Positions 5,582 to 43,373 of a stretch of 46,409 nt of DNA are shown here, in pieces. Every line of letters starts with the position of its first letter. Position 1 is the stretch's first letter. The DNA comes from a virus: positions 1 to 46,409 of the IMG/VR virus record IMGVR_UViG_3300046512_000061; one strand, given 5' to 3'. Below the pieces are notes generated by a model that had not been told where the DNA came from, did no database searches, and worked only from the letters and a program-made list of their open reading frames with translations. Made by a program: the position numbers and the translations under genes.

Positions 5582-5610
5582 AAGACAATACAAGTAATGC
5601 GTTGTACATT
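5582..5610 (+). promoter_or_regulatory. Promoter with spacer palindrome
   Basis: AAGACA at 5582, a 17-base spacer, then TACATT at 5605-5610. The spacer contains ACAAG-TAATGC-GTTGT at 5590-5605, nine of ten palindrome positions shared with the elements at 11969 and 43353. It lies between the terminator and the gene at 5647 and probably drives the polymerase operon. Confidence 0.6.
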
Positions 5611-5646
5611 TGCTTTAACGAAAACAAACGCAGGGAGTAACGGGAA

Positions 5647-5856
5647 ATGCAAAAGTATTTAGTCTTCGCCGGTGAAACGTATTACGCACTAGGCGGCATG
5701 CACGATTTCAAAAAGGGTTTTGATGATCTTGGTGAAGCTATCGCCTACGGATCTTCCATCATGGGCTACAGAAACGATTGGTACCACGTCGTAGACTATG
5801 CGGACGGGACAATTATCGCCTCTAGCGAGACGCAAGCCTTCGGTGTCGAAGACTGA
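5647..5856 (+). CDS. Hypothetical protein (69 aa)
   Basis: GGGAG precedes the ATG. A compact, aromatic-rich protein (YLVFAGETYYALGG, WYHVVDYADG). This layout recurs in small phage proteins of unknown role. First gene of the polymerase operon. Confidence 0.65.
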   Translation: MQKYLVFAGETYYALGGMHDFKKGFDDLGEAIAYGSSIMGYRNDWYHVVDYADGTIIASSETQAFGVED

Positions 5857-5867
5857 GAGCAAGCCAA

Positions 5868-5984
5868 ATGAACATCGCATTCAGCATCCAGTGCTACAAG
5901 AAGCTCCGCGCCAAGGGATACAAACCCGCCGCCGCGCTCTACGCAGCAAAGTTCTACAAATCGCGTTATCCGTTCATCAAGTAG
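5868..5984 (+). CDS. Small basic protein (38 aa)
   Basis: A short ORF with AGAGCAAG upstream and a highly basic, tyrosine-rich sequence (CYKKLRAKGYKPAAALYAAK). Its size and charge suggest nucleic-acid or membrane contact. It fits exactly between its neighbours, which supports it as a gene. Confidence 0.5.
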   Translation: MNIAFSIQCYKKLRAKGYKPAAALYAAKFYKSRYPFIK

Positions 5985-5996
5985 CGGGGAAGCGAA

Positions 5997-6197
5997 ATGA
6001 GTGTTTTAACTCAAGGAACTATCTTGTATTCAGCTACTCGCGCCGAACTGGCCCGCTTAGCCGACGATCCTTATGGGTACTGCATGGCCCATTTCTCGTT
6101 GCGTACCTTGGACCGCGAGCTGAGGACAGTGGCGTTCAAATTCGACGATGAGTCTGAACTCACTTTTAATATCCGATATGAGGTATCCGAGTCGTGA
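5997..6197 (+). CDS. Hypothetical protein (66 aa)
   Basis: Preceded by GGGGAAG. A mixed alpha/beta sequence with a beta-rich C-terminus (RTVAFKFDDESELTFNIRYEV). The stop overlaps the GTG of the next gene. No family recognised. Confidence 0.6.
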   Translation: MSVLTQGTILYSATRAELARLADDPYGYCMAHFSLRTLDRELRTVAFKFDDESELTFNIRYEVSES

Positions 6198-6574
6198 ACC
6201 GCATGTCGCAAGCCCTCGTCGAGGAACGTTGGGGCATTCCGTTCTGGCAGTTACTGGCCGACTTCGCTGATCAAGGCTTACCTCGTAGCACTGCCTGCAA
6301 GGCACTGGGCTACAGCCGTTGCTGGTTCTACCAGGTGTTGCGCAATAATCCGGATAAAGACCCGTTCCCGGATGTGAACATCGTCGCGGCCTATTCACGT
6401 GACACAGGGGAGACCTTGAAGGCCGCAGTTACGCGTATGGTCCAGGCCGGCTACACCGGGCGCCGTATTGCACGAGAAGTTGGGTACACCGACTGGTCCA
6501 GCCTGCGACGTACCCTGGAAGGCAGGGGAATCGATTTTCCCCTGCCGAAGAAACGGATAAGGAGACTCGCTTGA
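6194..6574 (+). CDS. Helix-turn-helix DNA-binding protein (126 aa)
   Basis: GTG at 6194 overlaps the previous stop; ATG at 6203 is the alternative. Two helix-turn-helix-like units are visible: residues about 30-50 (PRSTACKALGYSRCWFYQVL) and about 88-112 (RRIAREVGYTDWSSLRRTL). A basic PKKRIRRLA tail ends the protein. It directly precedes the DNA polymerase with overlapping codons, so a role in replication or its control is likely. Confidence 0.65.
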   Translation: MNRMSQALVEERWGIPFWQLLADFADQGLPRSTACKALGYSRCWFYQVLRNNPDKDPFPDVNIVAAYSRDTGETLKAAVTRMVQAGYTGRRIAREVGYTDWSSLRRTLEGRGIDFPLPKKRIRRLA

Positions 6575-8637
6575 ACCTCGAAAAATGCATTTTCCTCGAC
6601 ACAGAAACCTTCTGCGAAACGCCCATCAACAACGGGACGCACCGTTACGCAGAAGGCGCCGAGATCATCATGTGGCAGTGGGCGGTCGGCGATGGGCCGG
6701 TAGAGATTCGCGATGGGGATGAAGACGTGTCGGATCTCTTAGCGCTACTGGCTGACCCTTCTTACGCGAAAGTGATCCAGAACAGCGCTTTCGATCGCAC
6801 CGTTATGACCCACGTGATCGGCTTTACGATACCAGTGGAAGAGACGTTCGATACGATGGTCTGCGCTATGGCGCATTCATTGCCGGGCGCTTTGGAGAAG
6901 CTCGGCGACATCCTCGGGATCGCGAAGGACAAGGCGAAGGACAAGGCCGGCAAGGCGCTGATCCAACTGTTCTGCAAGCCACGACCAAAGAACCAGATCC
7001 TCCGACGTGCTACTCGTGAAACCCATCCTGTCGAGTGGGAAGCGTTTCGCGAGTATGGGCGTCTCGACATCGAGGCCATGCGTGAGATTTACAAGAAGCT
7101 GCCGCGGTGGAATTACCGGGGCGCTGAAAAAGAGTTGTGGCACCTCGATCAGCGCATTAACGAACGCGGCGTGCTGATGGACTTAGACCTTGCACACGCC
7201 GCTATCCGGGCCTCAGATCGCGCGCAGAAGGAACTGTCGCGTCAGGCTAACGAAATGACGGACGGTGCTGTCAGCAGTGCTAACCAGCGCGACAGAATGC
7301 TCGAGCATATTCTCGAAGCTTATGGCATTGCGTTGAAGGACCTGAAGGGCAGTACCTTAGAAAAAGCCTTGGAAAACGAGGACATGCCGGAAGAGCTCAA
7401 GGATTTGCTACGCGTCCGTCAGCAATCCAGCAAGTCTTCCAACAGCAAGTACAGCCGGGTTATCAACGGCGTGAGTTCTGACGGCCGCCTACGCGGTCTG
7501 CTGGCGTTCTGTGGCGCGTTACGCACGGGACGTTGGGCAGGACGCCTAATTCAGCCGCAGAACCTGCCCAGGGGTACTCTCAGCCCCGAAGGCGTGGACA
7601 ACGCAATCGAAGAACTGCTCCACAACGCCGAGGATCTTATCGGCGGCCCGACGGTTATGGACAAATGCTCCAGCGCTATCCGCGGGGTTTTCATAGCACC
7701 CCCCGGGAAGAAATTCGTCGTGGCCGACTTAGCGGGTATCGAGAACCGGGTATTAGCCTGGCTGGCCGGCGAAGCCTGGAAGCTTGAAGCGTTCCTGGAC
7801 TTCGATCTGCGCGACGGCCACGACATGTACAAACTCGCCTACGCCAAAGCTTTCGGCATCCGTCCGGAGGACGTAGGCAAGCACGAACGTTCGATCGGGA
7901 AAGTTTTGGAACTCATGCTGGGCTATGCGGGAGGTGTAGGGGCATACATCACGGGGGCCTTGACTTACCGCATCGACCTGGAAGACATGGCGGAAAAAGC
8001 TTGGGACGTTATCCCCGTCGCGACTCGCGATGATGCCGCCAGTTTCCTCGAATGGCAACTCGGCCAGGGGAAAAGCCAATACGGTTTGAGTGATCGCGCA
8101 TTCATCGTCTGCGACAGCTTCAAGCGCCTGTGGCGCGAAACTAACCCCGCTATCGCCGCATGGTGGAAAGATCTGGAGGACGTTGTTAGACGTGCGATCA
8201 ACAACCCAGGCCAAACGCTTACCTGCCGTATGCATAAGGTTCGCCGCGACGGCGCGTGGCTTCGAGTGATGCTGCCGTCCGGGCGATACCTGTGCTATCC
8301 GAATCCCCGCGTCGAAGACGATGGCGGTATCACGTTCATGGGCGTCAACCAGTTCACCCGCAAGTGGGAGCGATTGCGCACATACGGGGGCCGGCTGGTG
8401 GAAAATATTTGCCAAGCAGTGGCGCGGGACGTACTCGCGTACTCCCTCCCCTCAATCGAAAAAGCCGGTTACGAGATTGTCCTGACCGTTCACGATGAGA
8501 TTATCAGCGAAGCGCCGGACACCGACGACTACACGCACGAACACCTGGCCGAACTGATGTCCGCTGGTTGCGACTGGACAGAAGGCCTACCGCTCGCCGC
8601 CGCCGGCTTCGAAGCGTATCGCTACCGGAAAGGTTGA
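6571..8637 (+). CDS. Family A DNA polymerase with 3'-5' exonuclease (688 aa)
   Basis: TTG start with AAGGAGA eight bases upstream, overlapping the previous stop. The exonuclease domain has D10-T-E12 (Exo I), NSAFDRT (Exo II) and YGRLD (Exo III), so proofreading appears intact. The polymerase domain has ALRTGRWAG, motif A DLAGIENR (D386), a motif B helix (R-S-I-G-K followed by YAGG) and motif C VHDE near residue 641. No 5'-3' exonuclease domain is present, as in phage polymerases of this type. The stop codon lies inside the -35 of the next promoter. Confidence 0.95.
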   Translation: MNLEKCIFLDTETFCETPINNGTHRYAEGAEIIMWQWAVGDGPVEIRDGDEDVSDLLALLADPSYAKVIQNSAFDRTVMTHVIGFTIPVEETFDTMVCAMAHSLPGALEKLGDILGIAKDKAKDKAGKALIQLFCKPRPKNQILRRATRETHPVEWEAFREYGRLDIEAMREIYKKLPRWNYRGAEKELWHLDQRINERGVLMDLDLAHAAIRASDRAQKELSRQANEMTDGAVSSANQRDRMLEHILEAYGIALKDLKGSTLEKALENEDMPEELKDLLRVRQQSSKSSNSKYSRVINGVSSDGRLRGLLAFCGALRTGRWAGRLIQPQNLPRGTLSPEGVDNAIEELLHNAEDLIGGPTVMDKCSSAIRGVFIAPPGKKFVVADLAGIENRVLAWLAGEAWKLEAFLDFDLRDGHDMYKLAYAKAFGIRPEDVGKHERSIGKVLELMLGYAGGVGAYITGALTYRIDLEDMAEKAWDVIPVATRDDAASFLEWQLGQGKSQYGLSDRAFIVCDSFKRLWRETNPAIAAWWKDLEDVVRRAINNPGQTLTCRMHKVRRDGAWLRVMLPSGRYLCYPNPRVEDDGGITFMGVNQFTRKWERLRTYGGRLVENICQAVARDVLAYSLPSIEKAGYEIVLTVHDEIISEAPDTDDYTHEHLAELMSAGCDWTEGLPLAAAGFEAYRYRKG

Positions 8638-8662
8638 CTACAAGTCGAATCTTGCATAAGCT
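8634..8662 (+). promoter_or_regulatory. Promoter with spacer palindrome overlapping the polymerase stop
   Basis: TTGACT at 8634-8639 contains the polymerase TGA. After a 17-base spacer comes TAAGCT at 8657-8662, a weak -10. ACAAG-TCGAAT-CTTGC at 8640-8655 matches the shared palindrome at nine of ten positions. It serves the gene set starting at 8688. Confidence 0.55.
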
Positions 8663-8687
8663 TGCGTACAAATAGAGGAGAACCGAA

Positions 8688-8864
8688 ATGCGCACCATCC
8701 GACTTGACCTTGAATACCCGCGTGAAGGCAGCAGCGAAACCCTTACTTTTGAAGTGGAAGACGACGCGACCGATGAACAGATCGCCGCAGACGCTGAAAC
8801 CGAATTCTATAATCGCTGCAATTTCGGATGGAGTGAAATCGATCCGGAGGATTCAACATGCTGA
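8688..8864 (+). CDS. Small acidic protein (58 aa)
   Basis: AGAGGAG precedes the ATG. The protein is strongly acidic (FEVEDDATDEQIAADAETEF) with a C-terminal NFGWSEID. Similar small acidic phage proteins exist, but I cannot name the family firmly. The next start lies inside its last codons. Confidence 0.6.
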   Translation: MRTIRLDLEYPREGSSETLTFEVEDDATDEQIAADAETEFYNRCNFGWSEIDPEDSTC

Positions 8865-9016
8865 AGCCCCGCATAAAACGTTCCCAGTGGCGGGCTAGCA
8901 ATCTGCGTTGGATTTGTTTTAGCGGCACGCGGGAAAAACAAAAGGGGTATGGCTCCACGCCATACGAGGCTTACGCACGATGGGCGTCCAAATCCCGGAG
9001 AAGACCAAAATGCTAG
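8858..9016 (+). CDS. Small basic protein (52 aa)
   Basis: GGAGG at 8846-8850 precedes the ATG, and the ORF overlaps both neighbours by a few bases. The sequence is highly basic (IKRSQWRASNLRWICF, SKSRRRPK). YGSTPYEAYARWAS resembles the short 'processed region' motif of small phage proteins. Function unknown. Confidence 0.5.
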   Translation: MLKPRIKRSQWRASNLRWICFSGTREKQKGYGSTPYEAYARWASKSRRRPKC

Positions 9017-9327
9017 AGCGCGATATCGAAGCGTACCTCGTCAAGCGCTGCAAAGAGATTGGCGCGCTTTGCGACAAGTTCACGTCGCCTCAGCGTCGTT
9101 CGGTCCCTGATCGGCTGATCACCTTCGGCGGTCGCGTGTTGTTCGTTGAGCTGAAAGCGACCGACAAAAAGCCTACCGAAGCTCAGGTGCGCGACCATGA
9201 GCGTCGCCGTGCTGCGGGTGCCGAAGTGGTTTGGCTGGATAGCAAAGAGGATGCTGACGAGGTTATAGGCGCTCTGCGGAAGCGCAGAGCAATCGAATTT
9301 GACCATGAATTCAAGGTGGTTTGCTGA
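9010..9327 (+). CDS. VRR-NUC domain nuclease (105 aa)
   Basis: The ATG at 9010 is chosen because GGAG at 8997-9000 is well placed. It is a minimal PD-(D/E)XK fold: SVPDRLI (D34), VLFVELKA (E47, K49) and a conserved Gln (Q59), followed by a helix with RRAAGAEVVWL. Stand-alone VRR-NUC proteins are common in phages and are structure-selective or nicking nucleases used with replication helicases. A helicase gene follows two genes later. Confidence 0.88.
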   Translation: MLERDIEAYLVKRCKEIGALCDKFTSPQRRSVPDRLITFGGRVLFVELKATDKKPTEAQVRDHERRRAAGAEVVWLDSKEDADEVIGALRKRRAIEFDHEFKVVC

Positions 9328-9620
9328 TGGCGACTAGGCACGAAGGGCCGATCCCTGAAGGTAAACAGCGCTGCCGTCGCTGTGAAGGTTGGGGCGTAAC
9401 GCACTACAGCGTAGAAGAAATCGGCAAGCCCGTCGGTTGCTCAGATTGCGGGGGTCTTGGGATAACCGACGCCCCCTCAAAGCCAGTATACCCAACTGCG
9501 GATGAGCAGTTTGACGGGTGGTTATCAGACCGTACACACGGCCTCTACACCGACGAAGAGGAAGCCTTAGCGCGTGCTGCATGGAAAGCTGCCCAGGAGC
9601 GTTACGGCGATGGCTATTGA
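9327..9620 (+). CDS. DnaJ-type zinc-finger protein (97 aa)
   Basis: The ATG at 9327 (TGATG overlap) follows AAGGTGG. Residues 17-24 (CRRCEGWG) and about 40-47 (CSDCGGLG) are two CXXCXGXG motifs, which form one zinc site in DnaJ-like proteins. The C-terminal half is helical and acidic. Between the nuclease and helicase genes, so possibly an accessory factor. Confidence 0.65.
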   Translation: MATRHEGPIPEGKQRCRRCEGWGVTHYSVEEIGKPVGCSDCGGLGITDAPSKPVYPTADEQFDGWLSDRTHGLYTDEEEALARAAWKAAQERYGDGY

Positions 9621-11004
9621 TTACAAGCCCCACAAGTACCAAGACCTGATCATGTCGGCGATCCACGCGACCAAGCGTTTGGCTGTGTGGGCCGGAATGG
9701 GTCTTGGAAAGTCTGTCAGTACGGCCACGGCGCTGGAAGACCTCTCGCTTACCGAGGATGTCTACCCGGTTCTTATCGTCGCCCCGTTGCGCGTAGCGCG
9801 CACCACCTGGCCGCAGGAGTACCAGAAGTGGACCCACCTTAAGCATCGCCGAGTCGTTACGATCTGCGGCGCGCTCAAGGAACGCCAAGCCGCACTGCGC
9901 ATGAAGGCTGATGTCTACACGGTAAACTTTGAGCAACTGGAATGGTTGGTGGAGCACTTCGGCGACAAGTGGTCGTTTCGCACAGTGGTAGTCGACGAAG
10001 CGACCAAGCTCAAAGGCTTCCGGCTGCGTCAGGGTACGCGACGTGCCAAAGCACTGGCCCGCGTTGCGCATACCAAGATCAAGCGAATCATTCTGCTGAC
10101 CGGTACGCCGAGTCCTAACGGTCTCCAAGACCTTTGGGGACAGATGTGGTTCGTGGATAAGGGCGATCGCCTTGGCCGCACCTACGATGCCTTCAAACAA
10201 CGCTGGTTCAGGGCTTCGCATACCGGGTTCGGCGTCGAGGCAACCGACCAAGCGCAAGAGCAAATCCAGAAAGCACTAGGCGACGTGTGCATCACGATCG
10301 ACGCGGCGGACTGGTTCGACCTTAAAGAGCCGATCGTGAACGTGATCCGCGTAGAGCTGCCGCCGGCCGCGCGCGTCCTCTACAAGAATATGGAAAAACA
10401 GATGTTCATGGACTTGGAAGGCTCACAGGTCGAAGCGCTGAACGCGGCTGCGAAGACGCAGAAGTGTTTGCAGATTGCCTCGGGCGCGGCTTATGTAGAA
10501 GGCGGGCCGCAGTGGAAAAAGATTCACGACGAGAAGCTGAACGCACTGGAGGAAATTCTAGAGGAAGCCGCCGGTATGCCAGTGTTAGTGGCGTATCACT
10601 TCAAGAGCGATCTGGAACGTCTACTGGCGCGTTTCCCTCAAGGGCGTCACTTGGACAAGAAGCCCGAAACGATCGACGCATGGAACCGCGGTGAAATCCC
10701 GATCATGTTCGCCCACCCGGCCAGTGCGGGTCACGGTCTGAACCTGCAGGACGGAGGCAATATCCTCGTGTTCTTTAGCGTCAACTGGAATTTGGAGGAG
10801 CATCAACAGATTATCGAACGTAACGGCCCAGTGCGCCAGTTACAGGCCGGCCACAACCGCCCCGTGTTCCACCACTTCATCTTGGCTGCCGATACCGTGG
10901 ACGAGCTTGTACTGGAGCGCCTGCAGACCAAACGAGAGATCCAAGACATTCTGTTACGCGCAATGCGTGATAACGGATTCAACCCGGTAGAGGATGCAGC
11001 ATGA
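9610..11004 (+). CDS. SNF2/DEAD-type helicase (464 aa)
   Basis: The ATG at 9610 has AGGAG upstream and overlaps the previous gene. Walker A GMGLGKS is at residues 29-35, followed by LIVAPLRVARTTWPQE (motif Ia), VVDEATKLKG (motif II, DEAT), LLTGTPSPNG (motif III) and a C-terminal RecA-like domain with HPASAGHGLNLQ and EHQQIIERNGPVRQ (motifs V-VI). It lacks extra domains. With VRR-NUC and the polymerase it forms the replication/recombination set. Confidence 0.92.
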   Translation: MAIDYKPHKYQDLIMSAIHATKRLAVWAGMGLGKSVSTATALEDLSLTEDVYPVLIVAPLRVARTTWPQEYQKWTHLKHRRVVTICGALKERQAALRMKADVYTVNFEQLEWLVEHFGDKWSFRTVVVDEATKLKGFRLRQGTRRAKALARVAHTKIKRIILLTGTPSPNGLQDLWGQMWFVDKGDRLGRTYDAFKQRWFRASHTGFGVEATDQAQEQIQKALGDVCITIDAADWFDLKEPIVNVIRVELPPAARVLYKNMEKQMFMDLEGSQVEALNAAAKTQKCLQIASGAAYVEGGPQWKKIHDEKLNALEEILEEAAGMPVLVAYHFKSDLERLLARFPQGRHLDKKPETIDAWNRGEIPIMFAHPASAGHGLNLQDGGNILVFFSVNWNLEEHQQIIERNGPVRQLQAGHNRPVFHHFILAADTVDELVLERLQTKREIQDILLRAMRDNGFNPVEDAA

Positions 11005-11240
11005 CTATCCCACAGCAGTATTTCGTTAACCACAAGACCCGTATGCGCAGCATCTTGGGCGGACGCGGCCCTGATCACGAAGCAAACGTCAAGCAGGCTT
11101 TGAAAGGCGGCTACATCGAAGTCACTGCCGACGAGCAAGACGCCTTCGGACGCGATACGCAGAAGCTCTTAGACGCAGGCTGGGGCGGTTCGCCGCGCAA
11201 CTTAGCTAAGTACCTGCACGTTCTGGAGAAGGCATCATGA
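11001..11240 (+). CDS. Hypothetical protein (79 aa)
   Basis: Starts on the ATGA ending the helicase gene. A small alpha/beta protein (GGRGPDHEANVKQALKGGYIEV). The stop overlaps the next start. No family recognised. Confidence 0.65.
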   Translation: MTIPQQYFVNHKTRMRSILGGRGPDHEANVKQALKGGYIEVTADEQDAFGRDTQKLLDAGWGGSPRNLAKYLHVLEKAS

Positions 11241-11518
11241 CCCAACAGAAAACCGGCGGCAGCGTCGACTATTACAAATGCCACGTCGCTGACCCCATTT
11301 CCGAAGGCGAACCATACACCGCAGAGAGCATCGACATTATCGAAGCGCTCGACATGACCTTCGCCGAAGGCGAAGCGTTTAAAGCGATCTGGCGTACTTG
11401 CACTGGCCGCATGGGAGGCGCGGTAAAGGCCGACAACAAAGCGTTATACAACGCTGAGAAAGTTGAATTCTTCGGCGCTCGCATGGTGCGGGCTGCGAAA
11501 AGGAGTGAAGCGGAATGA
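11237..11518 (+). CDS. DUF3310-like protein (93 aa)
   Basis: The central ESIDIIEALDMTFAEGEAFKAIWR followed by a C-terminal helix matches the pattern of DUF3310 (SaV-like) phage proteins, in which a CIDIIE motif is followed by a helix ending in WR. The Cys of the family motif is a Ser here. The family has been linked to nucleotide metabolism and to triggering host defences; its role here is unproven. Confidence 0.55.
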   Translation: MTQQKTGGSVDYYKCHVADPISEGEPYTAESIDIIEALDMTFAEGEAFKAIWRTCTGRMGGAVKADNKALYNAEKVEFFGARMVRAAKRSEAE

Positions 11519-11769
11519 AGTACGTAGTCACGAAAGACGAGGATGGGGTTCAAGAGATATTCATCTTCCCGAAACGCTACAACCATGACGACTTCGCCGA
11601 CGACATCAACGGTCTCAGAGTCCGCGACCCGAACAATTATCGCGAGTGGGAACGAAAGTACAAAGAGCCAATCGCCGCCGGCTTCACCGACGGTAAGACG
11701 TGCTTTGGCCGCAGTGAAACTCTCGACCTCGATAGTCGCGGTCGCCTTGACGAGATGTTGATCGAATGA
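11515..11769 (+). CDS. Hypothetical protein (84 aa)
   Basis: Overlaps both neighbours as ATGA, with AAAGGAG upstream. The protein is acidic and begins with a beta-strand segment (MKYVVTKDEDGVQEIFIF). Unrecognised. Confidence 0.65.
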   Translation: MKYVVTKDEDGVQEIFIFPKRYNHDDFADDINGLRVRDPNNYREWERKYKEPIAAGFTDGKTCFGRSETLDLDSRGRLDEMLIE

Positions 11770-11966
11770 AAATCGGCGTACCAGTGAAATGTCAGAACGG
11801 GCACCGCGCCGTGTGGTTCTACAGCTTTCGCGGGCTTGACGTGATCAGCGAAGGCGTTCGGCAAAATGAGAAATGCGCGTGCCCTAAACACGAAATTGGC
11901 CAGGGTTATTTTGCCGACGGTGAACCGTTTGTCGTGGTCGGCAATCCGCCGCAGTGGGGAGGTTGA
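11766..11966 (+). CDS. Small Cys/His-rich protein (66 aa)
   Basis: CQNGH near residue 9 and CACPKH near residue 37 could form a zinc site. The C-terminus ends PPQWGG, and the stop codon is embedded in the -35 of the following promoter. Function unknown. Confidence 0.6.
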   Translation: MKIGVPVKCQNGHRAVWFYSFRGLDVISEGVRQNEKCACPKHEIGQGYFADGEPFVVVGNPPQWGG

Positions 11967-11991
11967 CTACAAGGAAACGCTTGTGTAGGAT
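11963..11991 (+). promoter_or_regulatory. Promoter with perfect spacer palindrome
   Basis: TTGACT at 11963-11968, a 17-base spacer, then TAGGAT at 11986-11991. The spacer holds the perfect inverted repeat ACAAG-GAAACG-CTTGT at 11969-11984. As at the polymerase gene, the TGA stop of the preceding gene is part of the -35. Drives the genes from 12020. Confidence 0.68.
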
Positions 11992-12019
11992 TGCGTTCAA
12001 CTAAACGGAGGGATTTGAA

Positions 12020-12334
12020 ATGAACGAAGCAATCGTAACTATAAATGGGGTGCAGCTAACCGTGGGCCAGTCAATGGCGCTTCGAGTTGCTGTCGGCAGC
12101 TTTGCACAAAGCATGCAGGATAACGGTTTGGGCGATGACGCTCACGGAAAAGCCATGGCCGAAGCCTACATCGCCCGGATTGCAGAAATTGAAAGCCTGA
12201 TCGTTAATCCCCTCCGCGGCCCTTCCAAACAGTGCGCCGCTTCGGGGCAGGCTGACTGCTACCGCAGCACTGTTCCGGGTTCGGAATATTGCGCCGAACA
12301 TAGCAACCGTAAAATCAACCGGACAACGTCATGA
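12020..12334 (+). CDS. Hypothetical protein (104 aa)
   Basis: GGAGGGA precedes the ATG. The N-terminal part is helical; the C-terminal third (CAASGQADCYRSTVPGSEYC, then HSN) has three Cys and a His spaced like a small zinc-binding or disulphide module. First gene after the 11963 promoter. Confidence 0.65.
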   Translation: MNEAIVTINGVQLTVGQSMALRVAVGSFAQSMQDNGLGDDAHGKAMAEAYIARIAEIESLIVNPLRGPSKQCAASGQADCYRSTVPGSEYCAEHSNRKINRTTS

Positions 12335-12477
12335 AAATCCTAGCGATGCTCTACATGCTAACCGCGAATGGCCCGGTGCCAGTGGCTGCGTACTTCACGC
12401 AGGACGCCCAGGTTATCTGCCGGGCGACAGCCGCTGCGCAAAATGCAACTGAGGAAGAGGAGTATTACTGTGAGTGA
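12331..12477 (+). CDS. Small protein with hydrophobic N-terminus (48 aa)
   Basis: Starts on the ATGA of the previous stop. The N-terminus (MKILAMLYMLTANGPVPVAA) is hydrophobic and could be a short membrane segment. The C-terminus is acidic (EEEEYYCE). The next gene starts inside its end. Confidence 0.45.
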   Translation: MKILAMLYMLTANGPVPVAAYFTQDAQVICRATAAAQNATEEEEYYCE

Positions 12478-12805
12478 CTACCTCGAGTACGCCGGCACCT
12501 GCAAAGAAGCTTGCGAAGCACTAAAGGTCGAGAACCCTGAGCTTCGTTTAGTACGGGGGTACTATGAATGCCCCATGTGGGGAGATCGCCAGCATTGGTG
12601 GCTAGAGAAGCCCGATGGCACGATCATAGATCCAACCGTAAAGCAATTCCCCACTGCAGGCATCGGGGCGTCCTACCGCGAGTATTTAGGCGAAGACCTA
12701 AGCTGCGAGGAATGTGGAAAAGGCGTGCCGGAAGAAGACGCAGTGACAATGGGTAACTTTGTCGTTTGCTCTACCCGCTGTGCAATGCGCCTAGTCGGAC
12801 TCTGA
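12470..12805 (+). CDS. Protein with C-terminal zinc ribbon (111 aa)
   Basis: A GTG start is inferred from GAGGAAGAGGAG just upstream and overlap with the previous gene. The central HWWLEKPDGTIIDPTVKQFP is a motif I associate with small phage proteins of unknown role. Residues about 80-83 (CEEC) and about 99-103 (CSTRC) give four cysteines for zinc. Not assigned a function. Confidence 0.6.
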   Translation: MSDYLEYAGTCKEACEALKVENPELRLVRGYYECPMWGDRQHWWLEKPDGTIIDPTVKQFPTAGIGASYREYLGEDLSCEECGKGVPEEDAVTMGNFVVCSTRCAMRLVGL

Positions 12806-12815
12806 GGAGAGGGAT

Positions 12816-28941: not shown

Positions 28942-28970
28942 ACTTTAGTCACTCGCATCACAAGTGTCAA
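28942..28970 (-). promoter_or_regulatory. Sigma70-type promoter of the tRNA unit
   Basis: On the minus strand TTGACA (28965-28970), a 17-base spacer, then TAAAGT (28942-28947). The -35 is a perfect consensus. It lies in the last codons of the DUF115-like gene, with the stop codon in the -10. It would transcribe the tRNA genes and end at the terminator near 28550. Confidence 0.65.
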
Positions 28971-33276: not shown

Positions 33277-34533
33277 TTACTGTAGAACTTCCTGCTGCGT
33301 GGTATTGATCGTCGCCGAAGCGGTTCCGGTTACCCCACCAACACGAAGTCGAACGAATTTACCCCCCGGGATGTATCGGCAGATCGTCCAGTTGTTGCCC
33401 TGGACTTGGTTAAGGACGATCGCCAGGGTGATAGTGTTGCTGTATGTCTGTTGTGCTTTGGTAGTCCAGTCGCCCGGGGTGGTGCTGTTCGTGTCGGCCG
33501 TTTCGAGGAATACGCTAGCCGAGGAAGGGCCGCCGATTGTCGAAGTCGTGCTGAAAGACCCTTCGTAGCAAGCCTGCACGACACGCGTAGAAGAGATCTG
33601 GTAACCCGTAGCGGCGGTAGAGCTTACCAAAGTGCGCCCGGGCGAGTCGTTCAATGCGAGAGCCGTACCAGAAGTTACGCGCCCTTGAGCATCGGTTGTG
33701 ACGCTAGCGTAAGTTCCTGCCGTGCCAGTGTTGGGCAGACTGATAGTACCGGTCGTGGTGATCGTTCCCCCGGATAAGCCAGTGCCAGCGGTTACGCTGA
33801 CAACGCTACCAGTGCCCGGCACCCCCGTTGCGCCGGTAGCTCCGGTTAAACCGATCGGGCCCTGTAGTCCTGTATCACCCTTCACCCCTTGAATACCTTG
33901 CGTCCCGGTGGCGCCGGTAAGACCAGTTGGGCCTTGTGAGCCTGTATCCCCTTTTACTCCCTGCGCGCCGCTAGCACCCGTCGCACCTTGCAATCCTGTA
34001 TCACCCTTCGCACCTTGAGAGCCGGTAGCACCCGTAGGCCCAGTTAGCCCCTGTAAACCAGTATCACCTTTAACTCCTGGCGAACCCTGAGGGCCAGTAT
34101 CGCCCGTGTCACCTTTTACACCTTGGATACCCTGAGTGCCCTCAGAACCAGGTGGGCCTGTTGCTCCTTGGGTTCCGGTATCTCCTTTAGGGCCCTGCGT
34201 GCCAACCGAACCTGTCGCGCCTTGGACCCCCTGAATACCCTGCATCCCGGTATCTCCTTTAGGGCCTACCGCGCCTTGTGGCCCCGGCGGACCTTCTGGA
34301 ACCGTAGAGGAGATAGTCGAGCCGGTGAGTGTCAGCCCTTGCCCCACTGTTACCCAGTTGGGCAGCAGCGTGGACGTGTTGTAGATCAGCAAGCCATTGC
34401 TAGGCGGGCTGACCATAAGGCGGGTGATCCAACCGTTATTAGTCAGGTTGCGTTGCTCTACCGCTACGTCAGAAGCCGCACCATGTGCCAAACCGCTGAT
34501 AAATATCAGTGCTGCCAGAATTAACTTTTTCAT
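33277..34533 (-). CDS. Secreted collagen-like protein (418 aa)
   Basis: The ATG at 34533 follows AAGGAC; the upstream ATG at 34551 has no site. Residues 1-18 (MKKLILAALIFISGLAHG) are a textbook signal peptide with cleavage near A19. Residues about 75-225 are Gly-X-Y repeats with many GDTG, GPTG and GIQGVKGDTG units. A C-terminal beta domain follows (TGLSGGTITTTGTISLP, then residues to 418). It may be a trimeric fibre, but a Sec signal is unusual for a virion protein, so export to the envelope or cell surface is possible. Confidence 0.8.
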   Translation of the reverse strand: MKKLILAALIFISGLAHGAASDVAVEQRNLTNNGWITRLMVSPPSNGLLIYNTSTLLPNWVTVGQGLTLTGSTISSTVPEGPPGPQGAVGPKGDTGMQGIQGVQGATGSVGTQGPKGDTGTQGATGPPGSEGTQGIQGVKGDTGDTGPQGSPGVKGDTGLQGLTGPTGATGSQGAKGDTGLQGATGASGAQGVKGDTGSQGPTGLTGATGTQGIQGVKGDTGLQGPIGLTGATGATGVPGTGSVVSVTAGTGLSGGTITTTGTISLPNTGTAGTYASVTTDAQGRVTSGTALALNDSPGRTLVSSTAATGYQISSTRVVQACYEGSFSTTSTIGGPSSASVFLETADTNSTTPGDWTTKAQQTYSNTITLAIVLNQVQGNNWTICRYIPGGKFVRLRVGGVTGTASATINTTQQEVLQ

Positions 34534-37171: not shown

Positions 37172-37210
37172 ATACAGCTCCGGTAAATTACGCGCACTTT
37201 ACCCTACCCA

Positions 37211-38878
37211 CTAGCCCAAGACAAACATTTGATGTTTCTTGTGCGCTGCCGCGGGATTAAGTGCCATCAATGACACGGCATTGAATAGCGCCATCACCGG
37301 GTCAATCTTGGCGGACCCTGAAGCCTGTTTAGTGATCAGGATGGAGTTTGCACGGGGCTCCACGCGGCAGTTAGAGACGCACCACGACATAAGCGGTTGC
37401 TCAGCGTGCTTTAGTTTCCCTTCGGCCAGGCGTCGTTCAGTGGTCTTAATAGCGCCGCCAAGTTTCCAACCCTGGCTGATGCCAACGATCTTGTCTTCTG
37501 GAATACCTCGGGCCACTAGTTCGTCAAAGATAGCGCCAATGCCTACCGGGTCAACGCCGATCTTATCGAGTAATCCAGTTTCGAAGATCTCCTCGACGAT
37601 GTCGCATAGTTCGGTCACGTCGTCGCCGATACGTTTGACGATCCGAAGGTCACCCTCCCTAGCAAAATCTTCAAACCTGGCCGCTTCCTGAAGGTTTCGT
37701 TTTAGAGCTGAAGGGTGCGCCCACGCGCGCGACCATGTAAGCCAGTCCCCGTTGTCCTTGTCGCGCCCAACCAATGAGAGCCCTAGCAAGTCGTCCAGGC
37801 CGCCGCCGTCGATTCCTACGACAATCACCTCAGCACGCTGTGTTAGGGTCTCTAACGTCACTAGCGTGGCTTGCTCCTGCCAGTAGTCGGCACCGGCCCA
37901 ACGGTCTGTGCGCAGCGCCAGCCCGATTTCCACGTTCAAATACTTCGCCAGGACGTTCAGGGTCTCCGGCTCGCCGGTCTCCTGTGCCTGCTTCAGCTTG
38001 CGTGCGATGTAATCGACGCTGGTCGATCGGCCAAGGTTCGGGTTAGTGATGTAGAAGTTTTCGGGTTTAAGGTAATCCTTATTCTCGATCATCGCCGCCG
38101 GGTACTCGTAGAGCACGGGAAGGAACTGCGGATCGACGATCTCGCCGTCGCGGACCTTGCGCGCATACATCAGCTTCGAACGGAAAACGCCGGCCGGCGG
38201 CTCATCTGACTGAGTGGTCAAGTAGAGAATGAAACCCTCCGGGCGGGACGCCAGGCCGCCGGTCGCTTCAAGCAACATCTTTTCGGCGTTGGGGTTCTTA
38301 CCGAATAAGTGAATCTCGTCGATCAGCACGACAGCGGCCTTCTTACCGCCCACGGTGTTGGTGTCTGCCGCGACAACTTTCAATGTGGCACCCGTGGCTA
38401 AGTGGGTGATCGTGCGCAAGTGGTCTTGCACCTGCATCATGCCCTCCAGTTCTGGATCAGCCTTTACCATGTCCCGCGCCGGGGCGTAGGCATTATCGGC
38501 CACTTCCTTGGTCGGCGCCAAGATGATGAACTCAGCCGACTGCCGCCAATTCTGAATCAGCACAGTCAGCATGATGGCCGCGGCGAAAGTGGATTTGGAG
38601 TTCTTCTTGGCGATGAGCAGAAAAAATTCCTTGATCATCTGCATCCCGTCGTCCGGGTTATACGCACCGAAGATCGCACCGGCCAGGTCATCCGTCCAGG
38701 GTTCGCAAGCTTCGCCAATAGTCGGGCTGCCCGGGGCGTCTACGATCCGCAGCAGATGCAAGACCTGCAGGGCGGCTGCAGCCGAGTCGGGAAACAACGG
38801 AGTGAAGGGAATCAGGCTATCGCCTTTTATGATCCGGTCTTCCCAGTCGGGGCATCGTGTCGTCCAGGTTGGGATCAT
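37211..38878 (-). CDS. terL: Terminase large subunit (555 aa)
   Basis: The ATPase domain has the deviant Walker A IAKKNSKSTF (residues 91-97) and Walker B VVLIDEIHLFG near residue 190. The C-terminal nuclease domain starts VVGIDGGGLDDLLGLSLVGRD near residue 355 and contains further acidic residues (GVDPVG). It packages DNA into the procapsid. It overlaps terS by four bases. Confidence 0.95.
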   Translation of the reverse strand: MIPTWTTRCPDWEDRIIKGDSLIPFTPLFPDSAAAALQVLHLLRIVDAPGSPTIGEACEPWTDDLAGAIFGAYNPDDGMQMIKEFFLLIAKKNSKSTFAAAIMLTVLIQNWRQSAEFIILAPTKEVADNAYAPARDMVKADPELEGMMQVQDHLRTITHLATGATLKVVAADTNTVGGKKAAVVLIDEIHLFGKNPNAEKMLLEATGGLASRPEGFILYLTTQSDEPPAGVFRSKLMYARKVRDGEIVDPQFLPVLYEYPAAMIENKDYLKPENFYITNPNLGRSTSVDYIARKLKQAQETGEPETLNVLAKYLNVEIGLALRTDRWAGADYWQEQATLVTLETLTQRAEVIVVGIDGGGLDDLLGLSLVGRDKDNGDWLTWSRAWAHPSALKRNLQEAARFEDFAREGDLRIVKRIGDDVTELCDIVEEIFETGLLDKIGVDPVGIGAIFDELVARGIPEDKIVGISQGWKLGGAIKTTERRLAEGKLKHAEQPLMSWCVSNCRVEPRANSILITKQASGSAKIDPVMALFNAVSLMALNPAAAHKKHQMFVLG

Positions 38879-39348
38879 TTAGGCACCGCGCGCAATGGCG
38901 CAGCCCGGGCGCCGAACTTGTTCCCTTCTGCCGCTGCCGATGCCGCACCTTCCGCCTTGGTCGCCTTCTTACCTTTCTCCCCGATCTTCGAGTGCTCGAA
39001 AGGCAGCAACGCTTTCGCCGCTTCCAACCTGGCTTTTACACCGGCCTTGGGGCAGTTCATAATCGCGGTTAGGAAAACCTTCGGGTCTTCCGTTTCAGGG
39101 ATTTCTATGGTTGCCAGTTCGGCCGCCGCATCATCTTCTGAAGCCTGCTCGGTTGAACCAGGTTTAGTTGGCTTTACGCCGGAGGTCGAAATACCGACGG
39201 CTGCCAGTGCGGCCACGATTGCGGGGTGTTTGCGCATACGAAAGCCCGCAGCCTTTGGCGATTTCAAACCCGCTGAAATAGCGGCCTGCTCGGGTTTCTC
39301 CCCTCGTAGCGTGGCTTTGAAGAACAGTTCTTGGGTTTCGTTGAGCAT
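38875..39348 (-). CDS. terS: Terminase small subunit (157 aa)
   Basis: An N-terminal HTH-like segment (ETQELFFKATLRGEKPEQAAISAGLKSPKAAG-type, residues 4-36) and the C-terminal PKVFLTAIMNCPKAGVKARLEAAKALLPFEHSKIG segment match small terminase subunits. Followed directly by terL. The repeat-rich gap upstream is a natural recognition site. Confidence 0.82.
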   Translation of the reverse strand: MLNETQELFFKATLRGEKPEQAAISAGLKSPKAAGFRMRKHPAIVAALAAVGISTSGVKPTKPGSTEQASEDDAAAELATIEIPETEDPKVFLTAIMNCPKAGVKARLEAAKALLPFEHSKIGEKGKKATKAEGAASAAAEGNKFGARAAPLRAVPK

Positions 39349-39643
39349 GTGTTGTTACCTGCGTGTTACTCGTGTTTGGAGGGTAACACGGGTGGCAAAG
39401 CCTATAGCACAATTAAATCTCTAAAAGGGGTCGGCGCGATCAGGGCAGGAAAGTGTGGCACGCCACTGCCCCACCCCCCGGATGCACCAAAATGGGTCAA
39501 AAATCGTGCGAATCGTTCTCATTTGCGTGAAAATCGTGCATTTTGCATGCTCGGGGCACATTGAACGCGAACCGTTTGCATTTGAGTCATGCAATTTGCA
39601 TGATTGGTACTGAAGGCTGCGTCGAACGCGCAACCGGTGCGGA
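39349..39643. other. Repeat-rich non-coding region; candidate packaging (cos/pac) site
   Basis: No credible gene in 295 bases. GTGTTAC at 39363-39369 is inverted as GTAACAC at 39383-39389. AAAATCGTGC is repeated exactly at 39500-39509 and 39530-39539 (30 bases apart). ATTTGC-type units sit at 39521, 39541, 39574 and 39594, spaced 20, 33 and 20. The region lies between terS and an HNH gene, where packaging sites of HK97-like phages are found. Confidence 0.55.
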
Positions 39644-40006
39644 TCACCCTCTACGCGCAGCGCCTACGCCATCTGCTGCCGTCTTGATCCCGTGGCAAGG
39701 CTTGCACAGGGGCTGCCAATTGCCCTCGCTGTCCCAGAACAGCTTCATGTCGCCTCGATGGTCAACGATGTGGTCGACCACGTTGGCCGCGGTCACCTTG
39801 CCCTGCGCCTCGCACATCCTGCAGAGCGGATGCTTCGCCAGGTAGGCGAGGCGGGCACGCTGCCACTTCCCACCGTACCCACGCTGCGCTGTGGTCAGCC
39901 CTTCGCGCCATGCGTCAGGGTTCAACATCTGCACCGACTGGGTACTGACCTCACGCGCTCGTGTGGGCTGCATGGTGACGCGTGACTTAGCCACCTGATT
40001 GGTCAT
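39644..40006 (-). CDS. HNH endonuclease next to terminase (120 aa)
   Basis: CRMCEAQGKVTAANVVDHIVDH and NWQPLCKPCHGIKTAAD form a compact HNH motif with two CxxC zinc pairs. In HK97-type phages a small HNH protein beside the terminase is known to take part in cos cleavage and packaging, and the position here fits. Start at 40006 (ATG), overlapping the upstream stop by 20 bases; the downstream ATG at 39973 is an alternative. Confidence 0.85.
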   Translation of the reverse strand: MTNQVAKSRVTMQPTRAREVSTQSVQMLNPDAWREGLTTAQRGYGGKWQRARLAYLAKHPLCRMCEAQGKVTAANVVDHIVDHRGDMKLFWDSEGNWQPLCKPCHGIKTAADGVGAARRG

Positions 40007-40364
40007 CCTTGAGCGATCTTACCCAACGTCCAAGGGAGTCGTGCGCACGATCGTGGTCTATCTGTTCGACTGCACGACTGTTCAACCCTGTCGGCCTAGC
40101 GTTAAGCGCCTGTGGTGCGATCTGAGCATCGCTAACCTCAGGTGGCTGTCCCTGTGCTACCAAAGCCTCTAGCGCCACGCATACGCGCTCTAGCAAAGCT
40201 TGGCTGCCTGTTTGCAGCTCTACTTCGAACCCGCTGCCCAGAACCATAGGTTCAGCGCCCAGTGCTTCCGCTGTCGGCGTGATCAGGTCCGTCAGGCTTT
40301 CGATCTGCGCTTTGCTCAGGTGTTGCGGGGTTTTTAGAACTAACAAGCATTTGGAATCGTTCAT
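39987..40364 (-). CDS. Hypothetical protein (125 aa)
   Basis: AAGGATT precedes the ATG. The N-terminal half (LLVLKTPQHLSKAQIESLTDL) is alpha/beta; the C-terminus is polar and basic (ARPTGLNSRAVEQIDHDR). It lies between the TGGAG-box block and the HNH gene. No family recognised. Confidence 0.65.
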   Translation of the reverse strand: MNDSKCLLVLKTPQHLSKAQIESLTDLITPTAEALGAEPMVLGSGFEVELQTGSQALLERVCVALEALVAQGQPPEVSDAQIAPQALNARPTGLNSRAVEQIDHDRAHDSLGRWVRSLKDDQSGG

Positions 40365-40367
40365 TGG

Positions 40368-40439
40368 CTAAATCCTTAATTCGTTTGAGTTTGGCTCGTC
40401 GCCGAGCGCATCCGGTACATGCCATGTGTTGGGCTCCAT
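40368..40439 (-). CDS. Possible 23-aa peptide
   Basis: MEPNTWHVPDALGDEPNSN then ELRI, ending just before the ribosome site of the next gene. Codon use and acidity look protein-like, but no clear ribosome site precedes it. Listed as a weak candidate. Confidence 0.25.
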   Translation of the reverse strand: MEPNTWHVPDALGDEPNSNELRI

Positions 40440-40489
40440 CTGATGAGTGATCAGGTTAGCCCATTACGCCACCCGAGAACATCGACCAG

Positions 40490-40615
40490 CTATCGGCGAA
40501 ACGTCCAGGGGGTCGTGATCTGCATTACGCGCAATTCCTGCGGGTTTATGTAATCTGCATTTATTGCGTGTTCGTTTTGCTCCATTTGTTTCTCTTTCTG
40601 AATCTGCTGTTCCAT
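40490..40615 (-). CDS. Small hypothetical protein (41 aa)
   Basis: The ATG at 40615 follows GGAG with about 13 bases. The sequence begins MEQQIQKEKQMEQNEHAINA and ends QITTPWTFRR, polar and helical. It lies within the repeat-rich block upstream of the HNH operon. Coding is plausible from its composition. Confidence 0.4.
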   Translation of the reverse strand: MEQQIQKEKQMEQNEHAINADYINPQELRVMQITTPWTFRR

Positions 40616-40730
40616 GCGGATCTCTTTGCTCCATTACTCCACCCCTAAAGGGTGGTGGAGTGGAGTGGAGCAGAAAAGAGACTGATCAACTACTCCATTT
40701 ACTCCATTGGAGCAGTTTGGAGCATGGAGC
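40579..40730. repeat. Array of TGGAG/CTCCA boxes; candidate replication origin or operator array
   Basis: About eleven copies of TGGAG or its complement lie within 152 bases. CTCCA-type copies are at 40580, 40629, 40637, 40693 and 40702. TGGAG-type copies are at 40656, 40661, 40666, 40708, 40718 and 40725, the last three as TGGAGC. CCACCC/GGGTGG near 40640-40656 also forms a hairpin. The block directly follows the primase-helicase gene, so iterons of an origin or repressor sites are reasonable ideas. Confidence 0.55.
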
Positions 40731-40747
40731 ATATAGATCTGCAATTC

Positions 40748-42718
40748 TTACGCATTGTCGTTTTCCGGCAATTTCACCATGCCATCCTCGACGAACAGGT
40801 AGTTTTTTGCGGATAAGCTATCAATACACCTGGACACATCGCGCTTGCGATTGTCCCTTTTCCCGCCAATCGGCGGTGCCAATTGCGCTGCGGCGGCCTC
40901 AATAAGCTCGGGTAAAGCCATCTTTTGGTCAGTTCCGAGGCCGAAAACCTCGTTCAAAACCATCAGAATTTGACGCTCTTTAGGGCCGACTGTGGTGCCC
41001 TTCTCCTTGGTCGCCCGGCCGGTGTTGGTGTACTCAACGATGCAGCTAGTAATGTCGTCGCCGTCCTCATCCTCTCCAAGAATTACTGTATGCAGCTTAA
41101 AGCCGATGTTGGCGCCGTCCTGCCCATCCTTTAGCTTGGTCACAGAGATAGACCGCAGTTCGTCCGAGCGCAGCACCTCAAGCTCTACATCAGCGGCAGC
41201 ACGAAGGCCGGACCAGCCTCGGGCGCCCTTGGAAGCGTCTTTGCCGCTGTGGTGGACGAGAAGCACCATGGCGCCAGTGTGACGATGAATGCGTTTGCAC
41301 TCGGCTAGGGCCTTACCCACGTCCTCGCCGCTGTTCTCGTTCGCGCCAGGCATCACCTGGGCGAAGGTGTCCATCACGATCAGGTCGTAGGGCTCTTGCT
41401 TCTTTATGTCCTTTATAAGGTCGGTGATTTGCGCCGGCTCTAGAAGGTTCGGCGTTAGGTCGCTGATCACGTCCATGTCGACGTCGGAAGGCTTTATGCC
41501 CTGCTGATGGCAGTAGGCCTTGATGCGGTTCACGAAGCCGGCTACGCCTTCGGCTACGACGTAAAGGACGCGACCCTTGGTAACGCGCTTGCCGTTCCAT
41601 TCGATGCCACGGCAGACAGCGGCGCACAGGTCGTAGGAGGCGAAGGTCTTACCAGAGCCCGATTCACCGAAAAGCACACCGAGGGTTGCTTTGGGCAAGA
41701 AGTCCTTGACGATCCATGAGACTGATCGAACCTGGCTGGCAAAGTCACTGTGCGAGCGGATGTTGAAGCGGCCTCCGACAGGCATCGGCAAAGCTTCAAA
41801 CTCGTCCGGGGACGCGACTTCCAAACCGGTTTCGCCGCCCGAATCGCGGATCATCAGCAGCACGGAGCCCATGGTCGTGTATTCAGCACTGGCGTTGCGG
41901 CCGAAGGAAACCCACCGCTCCATGCCGTAAGCGCTGGAGGTGTACTTGGGAGACCTGGACGACCATTCGTCCCATATGTCGAAGCCGTCGCCTTCCGTTT
42001 CATGGTGCACGGCCATGCCGACGTTGCGCCACTCGTCATACGTCAAATCATCAGGCAGCTTGTTCAGCAGTTCCGTGATCTGTTCTGGCGACATGCCGAA
42101 AGTAGGTTTGCCAGCACCAACGCATTCCGCACGGACGCGCTCCAGACGTTTGAACCGGGTAGCGCAGAAAGCCTTAACGGCATCCGATAGCGGCGCAACG
42201 GTGTTCTCGTCGCCTGTAAGCTCGGTCGTATCGGTCACGTCACCCGTGAAGGTCACGAAACCCTTACCGTGGAACGTTTCAAAGCCGAACGAGTTATCGG
42301 CCGGCGTACTGTCCTTGCTGTCGGGCGACTCGCCACGCATGAAGGCGCGCACACCAGTTCCTGACGGGCTTAGCTCGGCGTAGGTGCCGATCGTCAGTTG
42401 TTCGACCCGCGGATCAATAACGCCATTAGCGACGCAGTTGTCGAAGTCCAGCGCAGTAATGCCGAACTCGGGCATAAGAGCCAGGCCGACACCGGCGAAG
42501 TCATGCAGATCAGCGACGCGCTTGGCCTCTTCAAAGGTTACAAGAAGGGCGCGATCTTCGGGAGTGCCATGGGCGTGTTTGCGTACTGGTCCGGAAACGT
42601 AGTAGGGCATCTTCAGGGCTTTAGGCCGATCCGGGCGTCGCACCCATCGCCATACCAGCCACCCTTTCAGCTCCCGCAGTGCGGCAGGCGCCTGCAGGTG
42701 CTCGAATTTCTTAGCCAT
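40748..42718 (-). CDS. Bifunctional primase-helicase (656 aa)
   Basis: The ATG at 42718 is chosen for its GGGAG site; an upstream GTG is weaker. An N-terminal prim-pol type domain has GITALDFDNCV with D91 and D93 as candidate catalytic residues. A PriCT-2-like region follows (EWRNVGMAVHHET, then FDIWDEWSSRS). A C-terminal RecA-like ATPase has VLFGESGSGKT (Walker A, residues 351-358) and DLIVMDTFAQVM (Walker B). It would prime and unwind at the phage origin. Confidence 0.85.
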   Translation of the reverse strand: MAKKFEHLQAPAALRELKGWLVWRWVRRPDRPKALKMPYYVSGPVRKHAHGTPEDRALLVTFEEAKRVADLHDFAGVGLALMPEFGITALDFDNCVANGVIDPRVEQLTIGTYAELSPSGTGVRAFMRGESPDSKDSTPADNSFGFETFHGKGFVTFTGDVTDTTELTGDENTVAPLSDAVKAFCATRFKRLERVRAECVGAGKPTFGMSPEQITELLNKLPDDLTYDEWRNVGMAVHHETEGDGFDIWDEWSSRSPKYTSSAYGMERWVSFGRNASAEYTTMGSVLLMIRDSGGETGLEVASPDEFEALPMPVGGRFNIRSHSDFASQVRSVSWIVKDFLPKATLGVLFGESGSGKTFASYDLCAAVCRGIEWNGKRVTKGRVLYVVAEGVAGFVNRIKAYCHQQGIKPSDVDMDVISDLTPNLLEPAQITDLIKDIKKQEPYDLIVMDTFAQVMPGANENSGEDVGKALAECKRIHRHTGAMVLLVHHSGKDASKGARGWSGLRAAADVELEVLRSDELRSISVTKLKDGQDGANIGFKLHTVILGEDEDGDDITSCIVEYTNTGRATKEKGTTVGPKERQILMVLNEVFGLGTDQKMALPELIEAAAAQLAPPIGGKRDNRKRDVSRCIDSLSAKNYLFVEDGMVKLPENDNA

Positions 42719-42736
42719 CTTCGCGGCTCCCACAGC

Positions 42737-43258
42737 TTATACATCCGACGAAAAGTTAGGCTCTGCCAAAACGGATGCGTATTTCGGATTCATCAGTTCA
42801 GCCCGGGGAATGCCATACAGCGATTCGAACTCGGGGATGCGGTTCAGGGGTACATAACCCTGGTCGGCCCATTGCTGGACGGCCTGGGTAGAGACGCCAA
42901 CGCGTTTGGCGATGTCGGAGAAGCTGCCCTCGATCAGCAAAGCGCGGAGCAGGCCATTGTAGGAGCGCGCTGCGTACAAGGTGTTTAGGAGTTTGCCGGA
43001 AGCGTTCTTGGCCAGGGCTTCTTCGATCAGGGTAGTGAGGCGCGAGTCGTCGATCTCGCCCGCGGACAGGTTAGCGCCGAAAACCTTTTCGGCTTGCTCT
43101 AGGTTCTCAATACCGATCTTAGCCGCCTCGGTACGGATCGCCTGCTCAGCCTCTTTAGGATCGACCCCCTTGAAAGCCAGGCGCACGGCTGTATGCGCGA
43201 TAGCGCGAAGGATGCTGCTGTCACGGAATTTGGATTCTACTTTTCTGCGAGTTGCCAT
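42737..43258 (-). CDS. Cro/YdaS-like transcriptional regulator (173 aa)
   Basis: The C-terminal part has a helix-turn-helix SFSDIAKRVGVSTQAVQQWADQGYVPLNRIPEFE-type region (residues about 112-150), matching Cro/YdaS-type DNA-binding proteins. The N-terminal part is helical and may mediate oligomerisation. First gene of the minus arm, transcribed divergently from the plus early genes; the best candidate to bind the ACAAG-N6-CTTGT palindromes. Confidence 0.75.
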   Translation of the reverse strand: MATRRKVESKFRDSSILRAIAHTAVRLAFKGVDPKEAEQAIRTEAAKIGIENLEQAEKVFGANLSAGEIDDSRLTTLIEEALAKNASGKLLNTLYAARSYNGLLRALLIEGSFSDIAKRVGVSTQAVQQWADQGYVPLNRIPEFESLYGIPRAELMNPKYASVLAEPNFSSDV

Positions 43259-43291
43259 TTCATAACCTCAGTGGTGCGTAGGATGTTCCGC

Positions 43292-43320
43292 ATGATAAGG
43301 TTGATTAAGGTTTAAGACAA
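43292..43320 (-). promoter_or_regulatory. Divergent promoter of the minus arm
   Basis: On the minus strand TTGTCT (43315-43320), a 17-base spacer, then TATCAT (43292-43297), 34 bases before the regulator start codon. The spacer contains the direct repeat AACCTTAATCAACCTTA. A closely related sequence is found on the opposite strand at 29996-30024. Confidence 0.65.
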
Positions 43321-43344
43321 GCATTACCGTTCGTCAAATAGCAC

Positions 43345-43373
43345 TAGACAATACAAGTGACTGCTTGTAATCT
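43345..43373 (+). promoter_or_regulatory. Divergent promoter of the plus arm with perfect palindrome
   Basis: TAGACA at 43345-43350, a 17-base spacer, then TAATCT at 43368-43373. ACAAG-TGACTG-CTTGT at 43353-43368 is a perfect inverted repeat occupying the spacer. It is 41 bases upstream of the first plus gene. A regulator bound here would cover both promoter elements. Confidence 0.65.

Follow-up and report, generated by a model that had tools for sequence, protein, structure and literature searches.

Five plus-strand promoters of one phage genome carry the same 16-bp palindrome, ACAAG-N6-CTTGT, in their spacers, which raises the question of what the palindrome does there, which protein answers to it and what kind of genes these promoters serve. 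The DNA analysed, hereafter called the window, is the whole stretch of 46,409 nucleotides of the IMG/VR record IMGVR_UViG_3300046512_000061. Its end repeats its start perfectly over 127 bp, an overlap typical of circular assemblies, and the window was therefore taken to be a complete, circular genome with a length of 46,282 bp. Its genes for tail, head, terminase and lysis proteins, DNA polymerase, helicase and primase-helicase are those of a tailed phage. When half of the window was compared by DNA with annotated phages, no match and no near-identical phage was found. The terminase shares 64 % identity with its counterpart in Pseudomonas phage IME307, from which Pseudomonas is guessed as the host.

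The related set consisted of about 40 viral loci with a DNA polymerase of at least 63 % identity or with a Cro-like gene, for which 18 whole or nearly whole related genomes were fetched; genome-set counts are given over 19 genomes and, because the related loci share descent, are not independent. Prophage copies were looked for with a P3 promoter pattern, which was absent from the GTDB genomes (84,980-species collection), and neither an integrase nor a CI repressor was noticed among the window proteins searched (part of the ORFs). The bacteriophage group carrying these promoter blocks is newly seen.

Palindromes in the spacers of five promoters

A pattern search of the whole window returned the five sites of the sequence-only reading with the same coordinates and mismatch numbers (Table 1). 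The palindrome is perfect at P1 and P5, has one mismatch at P3 (right arm GTTGT instead of CTTGT) and at P4, and two at P2, where the left arm is GCAAG. The sole further window site with at most one mismatch, at 33922-33937, lies within a late gene. Expected numbers were taken from 300 first-order shuffles of the window: exact matches numbered 2 versus 0.02 expected, and sites with at most one mismatch 5 versus 1.1 expected, a number which none of the 300 shuffles reached. With up to two mismatches there were 20 sites versus about 16-16.5 expected, and at this level the motif alone was not significant. Many equally good matches inside coding regions, which had been named beforehand as evidence against an operator role, thus occur at two mismatches but not at one or fewer. 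Since the two-mismatch level is that of chance, site 44892 would be unacceptable from the window alone and stands only by its conservation, being nearly invariant among the relatives.

Promoter hexamers, previously claimed for four of the sites, were found on both sides of the palindrome at all five. A palindrome with at most one mismatch together with a sigma-70-type promoter occurred 4 times in the window (0.013 expected), and the combination of palindrome and promoter 56 times across the 19 genomes (0.4 expected).

Table 1 Features of the window, with promoters written as -35 box, spacer length and -10 box
Feature	Position	Strand	Description
P1	43345..43373	+	TAGACA-17-TAATCT; perfect palindrome ACAAGTGACTGCTTGT, 43353-43368; divergent to the Cro-like gene
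P2	44884..44912	+	AAGCAA-17-TATAGT; palindrome GCAAGTTTCGTGTTGT, 44892-44907, 8 of 10 arm positions
P3	5582..5610	+	AAGACA-17-TACATT; palindrome ACAAGTAATGCGTTGT, 5590-5605
P4	8634..8662	+	TTGACT-17-TAAGCT; palindrome ACAAGTCGAATCTTGC, 8640-8655; -35 box on the DNA polymerase stop codon
P5	11963..11991	+	TTGACT-17-TAGGAT; perfect palindrome ACAAGGAAACGCTTGT, 11969-11984
Upstream 10-mer of P1	43326..43335	+	ACCGTTCGTC, about -54 to -45
Upstream 10-mer of P2	44866..44875	+	ACCGTTCGTC
Upstream 10-mer of P3	5563..5572	+	ACCGCTCGTC
First gene of P1	43414..43626	+	relatives in 0 of 18 genomes
First gene of P2	44943..45269	+	relatives in 0 of 18 genomes
First gene of P3	5647..5856	+	weak relatives in 3 of 18 genomes
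First gene of P4	8688..8864	+	relatives in 0 of 18 genomes
First gene of P5	12020..12334	+	relatives in 0 of 18 genomes
Cro-fold DNA-binding protein (predicted), probable regulator	42737..43258	-	173 amino acids; C-terminal part of about 105 amino acids conserved
Predicted promoter of the Cro-like gene	43292..43320	-	TTGTCT-17-TATCAT, from a consensus scan only
Primase-helicase	40748..42733	-	directly downstream of the Cro-like gene

The five promoters fall into two classes, with a spacer of 17 bases in both. In class A (P4 and P5) the palindrome abuts the -35 box TTGACT and is separated by one base from the -10 box, and in class B (P1, P2 and P3) a poorer -35 box (TAGACA, AAGCAA and AAGACA, respectively) is followed by two bases and then by the palindrome, on whose last T the -10 box starts. 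The palindrome is consequently placed 2 bp later in class B. As it shifts in this way relative to the hexamers and yet keeps its arms, neither the hexamers nor contacts of RNA polymerase explain its conservation, and a reading of the right arm as an extended -10 element was rejected because of the same difference in register. Over 46 distinct sites the CAA and TTG columns of the arms were invariant (2.0 bits each); the information was lower for the outer and inner arm bases (0.9-1.9 bits) and lowest in the core (0.1-0.8 bits over its six bases). With the arms fixed, core variation is free at P1 and partial at P3 and P5, and a distant relative, G021 (DNA polymerase 68 %), has kept the arms around a different core. 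With conserved arms, a variable core and two registers, the palindrome appears to behave as an operator would. The LexA operator is CTGT-N8-ACAG; no operator of this type was found at the 46 distinct sites, all of which have the arms CAA/TTG.

The class B promoters have, in addition, the 10-mer ACCGTTCGTC, which begins 26-27 bases 5' of the palindrome; some P1 copies among the relatives have it in the opposite orientation and at a less strict distance. Its presence together with the poor -35 boxes of this class suggests a putative activator site.

A sixth conserved promoter, TTGACATACCTTGTGCCGCTGTCTACCAT, is present at window positions 2416-2444 (+) and in nearly all relatives, followed by an inverted repeat GTGCCGC...GCGGCAC around the -10 box. 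On the minus strand, a promoter TTGACA-CTTGTGATGCGAGTGAC-TAAAGT at 28970 (-), conserved in most relatives, precedes two tRNA genes and late genes, and its spacer starts with the half-site CTTGT.

Gene turnover behind fixed promoter blocks

Each promoter has a fixed place: P1 is divergent to the Cro-like gene, P2 belongs to the subsequent early cluster, P3 comes after the single-strand-binding-protein gene and a terminator (5535-5554) just 5' of the promoter, P4 overlaps the DNA polymerase stop codon and P5 follows the helicase block. The sites had been described as lying in non-coding gaps, which holds generally but not for the -35 box at 8634, with its overlap of the polymerase stop codon. 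P2 was near-invariant in 16 genomes, with a pairwise identity of 0.94 over 30 bp, P3 was present in 19 of 19 genomes, the 30-bp block of P4 had a pairwise identity of 0.986, and P5 was found in 4 of the 19 genomes, with differing cores.

The pairwise identity of the 30-bp blocks, 0.73-0.99, falls to about 0.25-0.34 in the DNA past the start codon. The first genes behind the promoters comprise 65 proteins of 54 families in the 19 genomes and 125 distinct proteins of 93 families across all loci; the polymerase, helicase, exonuclease, SSB, primase-helicase and Cro-like genes are core genes, found in 18 of 18 relatives. As judged from these comparisons, nearly every genome differs behind each fixed promoter, a turnover that was unexpected. 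The swapping of genes behind near-invariant blocks is the main feature, and it was invisible to the sequence-only reading, made from the window alone.

Few of the first genes have a known function. Those recognisable encode DNA methyltransferases, a sliding-clamp-like protein, a RusA-like resolvase and a nucleoside deoxyribosyltransferase-like protein. A PADLOC scan of the first genes gave almost only DNA methyltransferase matches, all due to one protein, and no anti-CRISPR was identified. One family (MTFxCxDHVRIA...) was found behind P3, P4 and P5 in different phages, and G009 and L017 have a further copy of the P4 block elsewhere, which in G009 is joined to a P5-type leader.

Behind the polymerase stop codon of L016, L018, L019, L048, L050 and L052, P4 is replaced by a block with CTATCTAG repeats, which precedes a small Cys-containing protein, MREQVYFGRLCPKHPE. 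The DNA polymerase gene is whole in the window; in L016, L013, L014 and L046 it is split after codon 356 by a stop codon and an inserted gene, different each time, and likewise in L025, which has an intein-like insert as well. By eye, the inserted genes were DNA methyltransferases, an HNH-like endonuclease and one unknown. An Rfam search in four relatives with polymerase inserts found no intron.

The Cro-like protein and its proposed control of the promoters

Relatives of the protein encoded at 42737 were found in 18 of 18 genomes, mostly in a form of about 104 amino acids that corresponds to the C-terminal part of the 173 amino acids predicted in the window. The AlphaFold model was confident over this part, and its top Foldseek matches were 3bd1 and 5w8y (Xfaso 1 Cro, XPH1; TM by target 0.71-0.81, probability 1.00, E-values 0.1-0.4). 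Sequence profiles gave E-values of 1.6e-6 and 5e-6 for Cro likeness. The curated Pfam cut-offs were not reached for YdaS (27.5 bits, cut-off 30) or P22_Cro (21.6 bits, cut-off 30.2), and the protein, which according to the model has a Cro fold, is therefore called Cro-like and not a member of those families.

The Cro-like gene and P1 are divergent, with the operator-like palindrome between them, as in a Cro-type arrangement. A total of 24 related loci have the palindrome 5' of the Cro-like gene, the distant L245 and L246 (55 % over the DNA-binding region) among them, and a perfect copy is at the same place in L249 (41 % identity). Loci in which P1 lacks the palindrome are four with the QAVQHW helix, the three with HQCAQQW whose upstream sequence was long enough, L212, and L242, whose recognition helix is the usual one. 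Three genomes, G006 and G011 (HQCAQQW) and G019 (QAVQHW), lack a full palindrome at P1 and have kept it at P2, P3 and any P4 or P5, so that another protein might act at P2-P5. The idea that recognition helix and operator match cleanly was rejected, the agreement being only partial since P2-P5 do not track the pattern at P1. The HQCAQQW loci L226, L229 and L230 have three direct repeats GCAACA(A/G)AG(C/T)G at P1 and no palindrome, and these repeats are perhaps a different operator. In Caulobacter phage GB2A a two-mismatch site, ACAAGCAATAGGTTGC, is located just ahead of a related repressor gene, which is suggestive only.

The half-site of the 434 repressor is also ACAA. By analogy, the invariant Gln125 may read the second base pair of the arm and the variable residue 124 the first, variable arm position, which provides a lead.

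The 42737 protein is the likely shared regulator of the five promoters, at P2-P5 a presumed one. The motif itself is real and the sequence-only reading as a whole was partly supported: operator-like palindromes are indeed shared by plus-strand spacers ahead of early genes and are conserved in relatives, and the protein which it took for the most likely regulator has a predicted Cro fold, has a counterpart in each of the 18 fetched genomes and is encoded divergently to 43353, but is only a candidate for binding at all five sites.

According to the mechanism that we propose, and consider probable, P1-P5 are early promoters of the host sigma-70 type with a spacer operator repressed by a Cro-like dimer, and they form fixed sockets for exchangeable accessory genes. 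On phage entry the host RNA polymerase would transcribe all five promoters. The dimeric Cro-like protein, most likely that of 42737-43258, encoded with the primase-helicase, would then accumulate and cover the spacers, each of which contains within its 17 bp the operator core ACAA-N8-TTGT, usually as ACAAG-N6-CTTGT, and the five promoters would be shut off jointly. Spacer-bound activation of the MerR type requires a longer spacer. With the palindrome centred near -20 in a normal 17-base spacer, a bound dimer would block the polymerase, and from this we infer early expression followed by shut-off. Promoter, operator, leader and ribosome-binding site would be kept together as a block while the downstream gene is exchanged, so that every block would offer accessory early genes a socket ready for use and under common control.

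It is possible, and suggested here only tentatively, that one Cro-like repressor with a standard block at five places allows unrelated counter-defence genes to be swapped without rewiring, and that the block can be used as bait. If the proposed mechanism is true, the block is a search tag and the small genes behind it are candidate early accessory genes, for which the 93 families, most of them without assigned function, are already available. Such a system would also illustrate how early genes of a phage can be exchanged without restriction while a single repressor governs their timing.

Another factor, host- or phage-encoded, might bind P2-P5, with the Cro-like protein controlling only the divergent P1 region, as would fit the unchanged palindromes of P2-P5 in genomes with another P1 site and another recognition helix. 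This is unlikely, though worth serious attention, as the same motif is found at P1 in most genomes and a non-systematic look identified no known host operator for P2-P5. The alternative HTH protein at 6194-6574 has relatives in only 6 of 18 genomes and was rejected as a common regulator. The blocks could also be conserved mainly as short homologies by which genes are recombined into fixed places, with the palindrome incidental or a recombinase site. The almost identical blocks ahead of differing distal genes, the second copy of the P4 block with its joint to a P5-type leader, and the family shared by P3, P4 and P5 would all agree with this, but fixed arms around a core that varies at P1, at P3 and P5 in part and in G021 point to selection on the arms and not to block copying, which makes recombination improbable as the main reason for the conservation. 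A recombination role can coexist with the operator role. Chance likeness of ordinary promoters without a shared regulator would agree with the two-mismatch count of the motif alone, but is scarcely credible given the 56 combined sites and the invariant arms around a variable core, and at the sequence level the comparative data exclude it.

Comparison with known systems

Anti-CRISPR promoters are repressed by Aca1 and Aca2, which act on inverted repeats lying over the -10 and -35 boxes (PMC8434428). The present case resembles the Aca systems (PMC8434428) in having an HTH protein, here a putative repressor, and inverted repeats that overlap the promoters of early accessory genes, the palindrome being in the spacer and touching the -35 or the -10 box. 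Aca genes share the acr operon, whereas here the Cro-fold gene, 42737, is divergent, on the opposite strand and beside the primase-helicase, and the site recurs at five scattered promoters.

Archaeal viruses have an early promoter in common, probably under repression by Aca8, in front of small genes that are dissimilar and of which several have an anti-defence function (PMC11065993). A near-identical regulatory sequence before dissimilar small early genes and a proposed HTH repressor are common to both cases (PMC11065993), but the archaeal system has TATA/BRE elements, and the promoters described here have bacterial sigma-70 hexamers, a spacer palindrome and fixed places between core replication genes.

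The start-associated repeats SAS and ESAS of cluster K mycobacteriophages are located ahead of varied non-structural genes, SAS being asymmetric, 13 bp long and placed at the ribosome-binding site and ESAS having 17-bp imperfect inverted repeats (PMC3203893). They are similar in that conserved sequences are repeated just before differing genes, but neither matches the promoter and operator found here, and the 13-bp SAS, GGGATAGGAGCCC, was absent from the ribosome-binding sites when promoters and leaders were read directly. In the literature searched, nothing relevant was found on a 'promoter early stem-loop'.

Phage Cro proteins (Xfaso 1 Cro, 3bd1; P22 Cro) are similar in predicted fold, HTH and a gene divergent to the early promoter, and differ from the window's protein with its proposed five-promoter regulon and extra N-terminal part, beside which no CI or integrase was noticed among the searched proteins.

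By the tests made, the case is a member of none of the Aca, archaeal early-promoter and SAS/ESAS systems, but it would work like them, and if the proposed mechanism is true, the regulatory-sequence approach of the archaeal viruses (PMC11065993) would be extended to bacteriophages.
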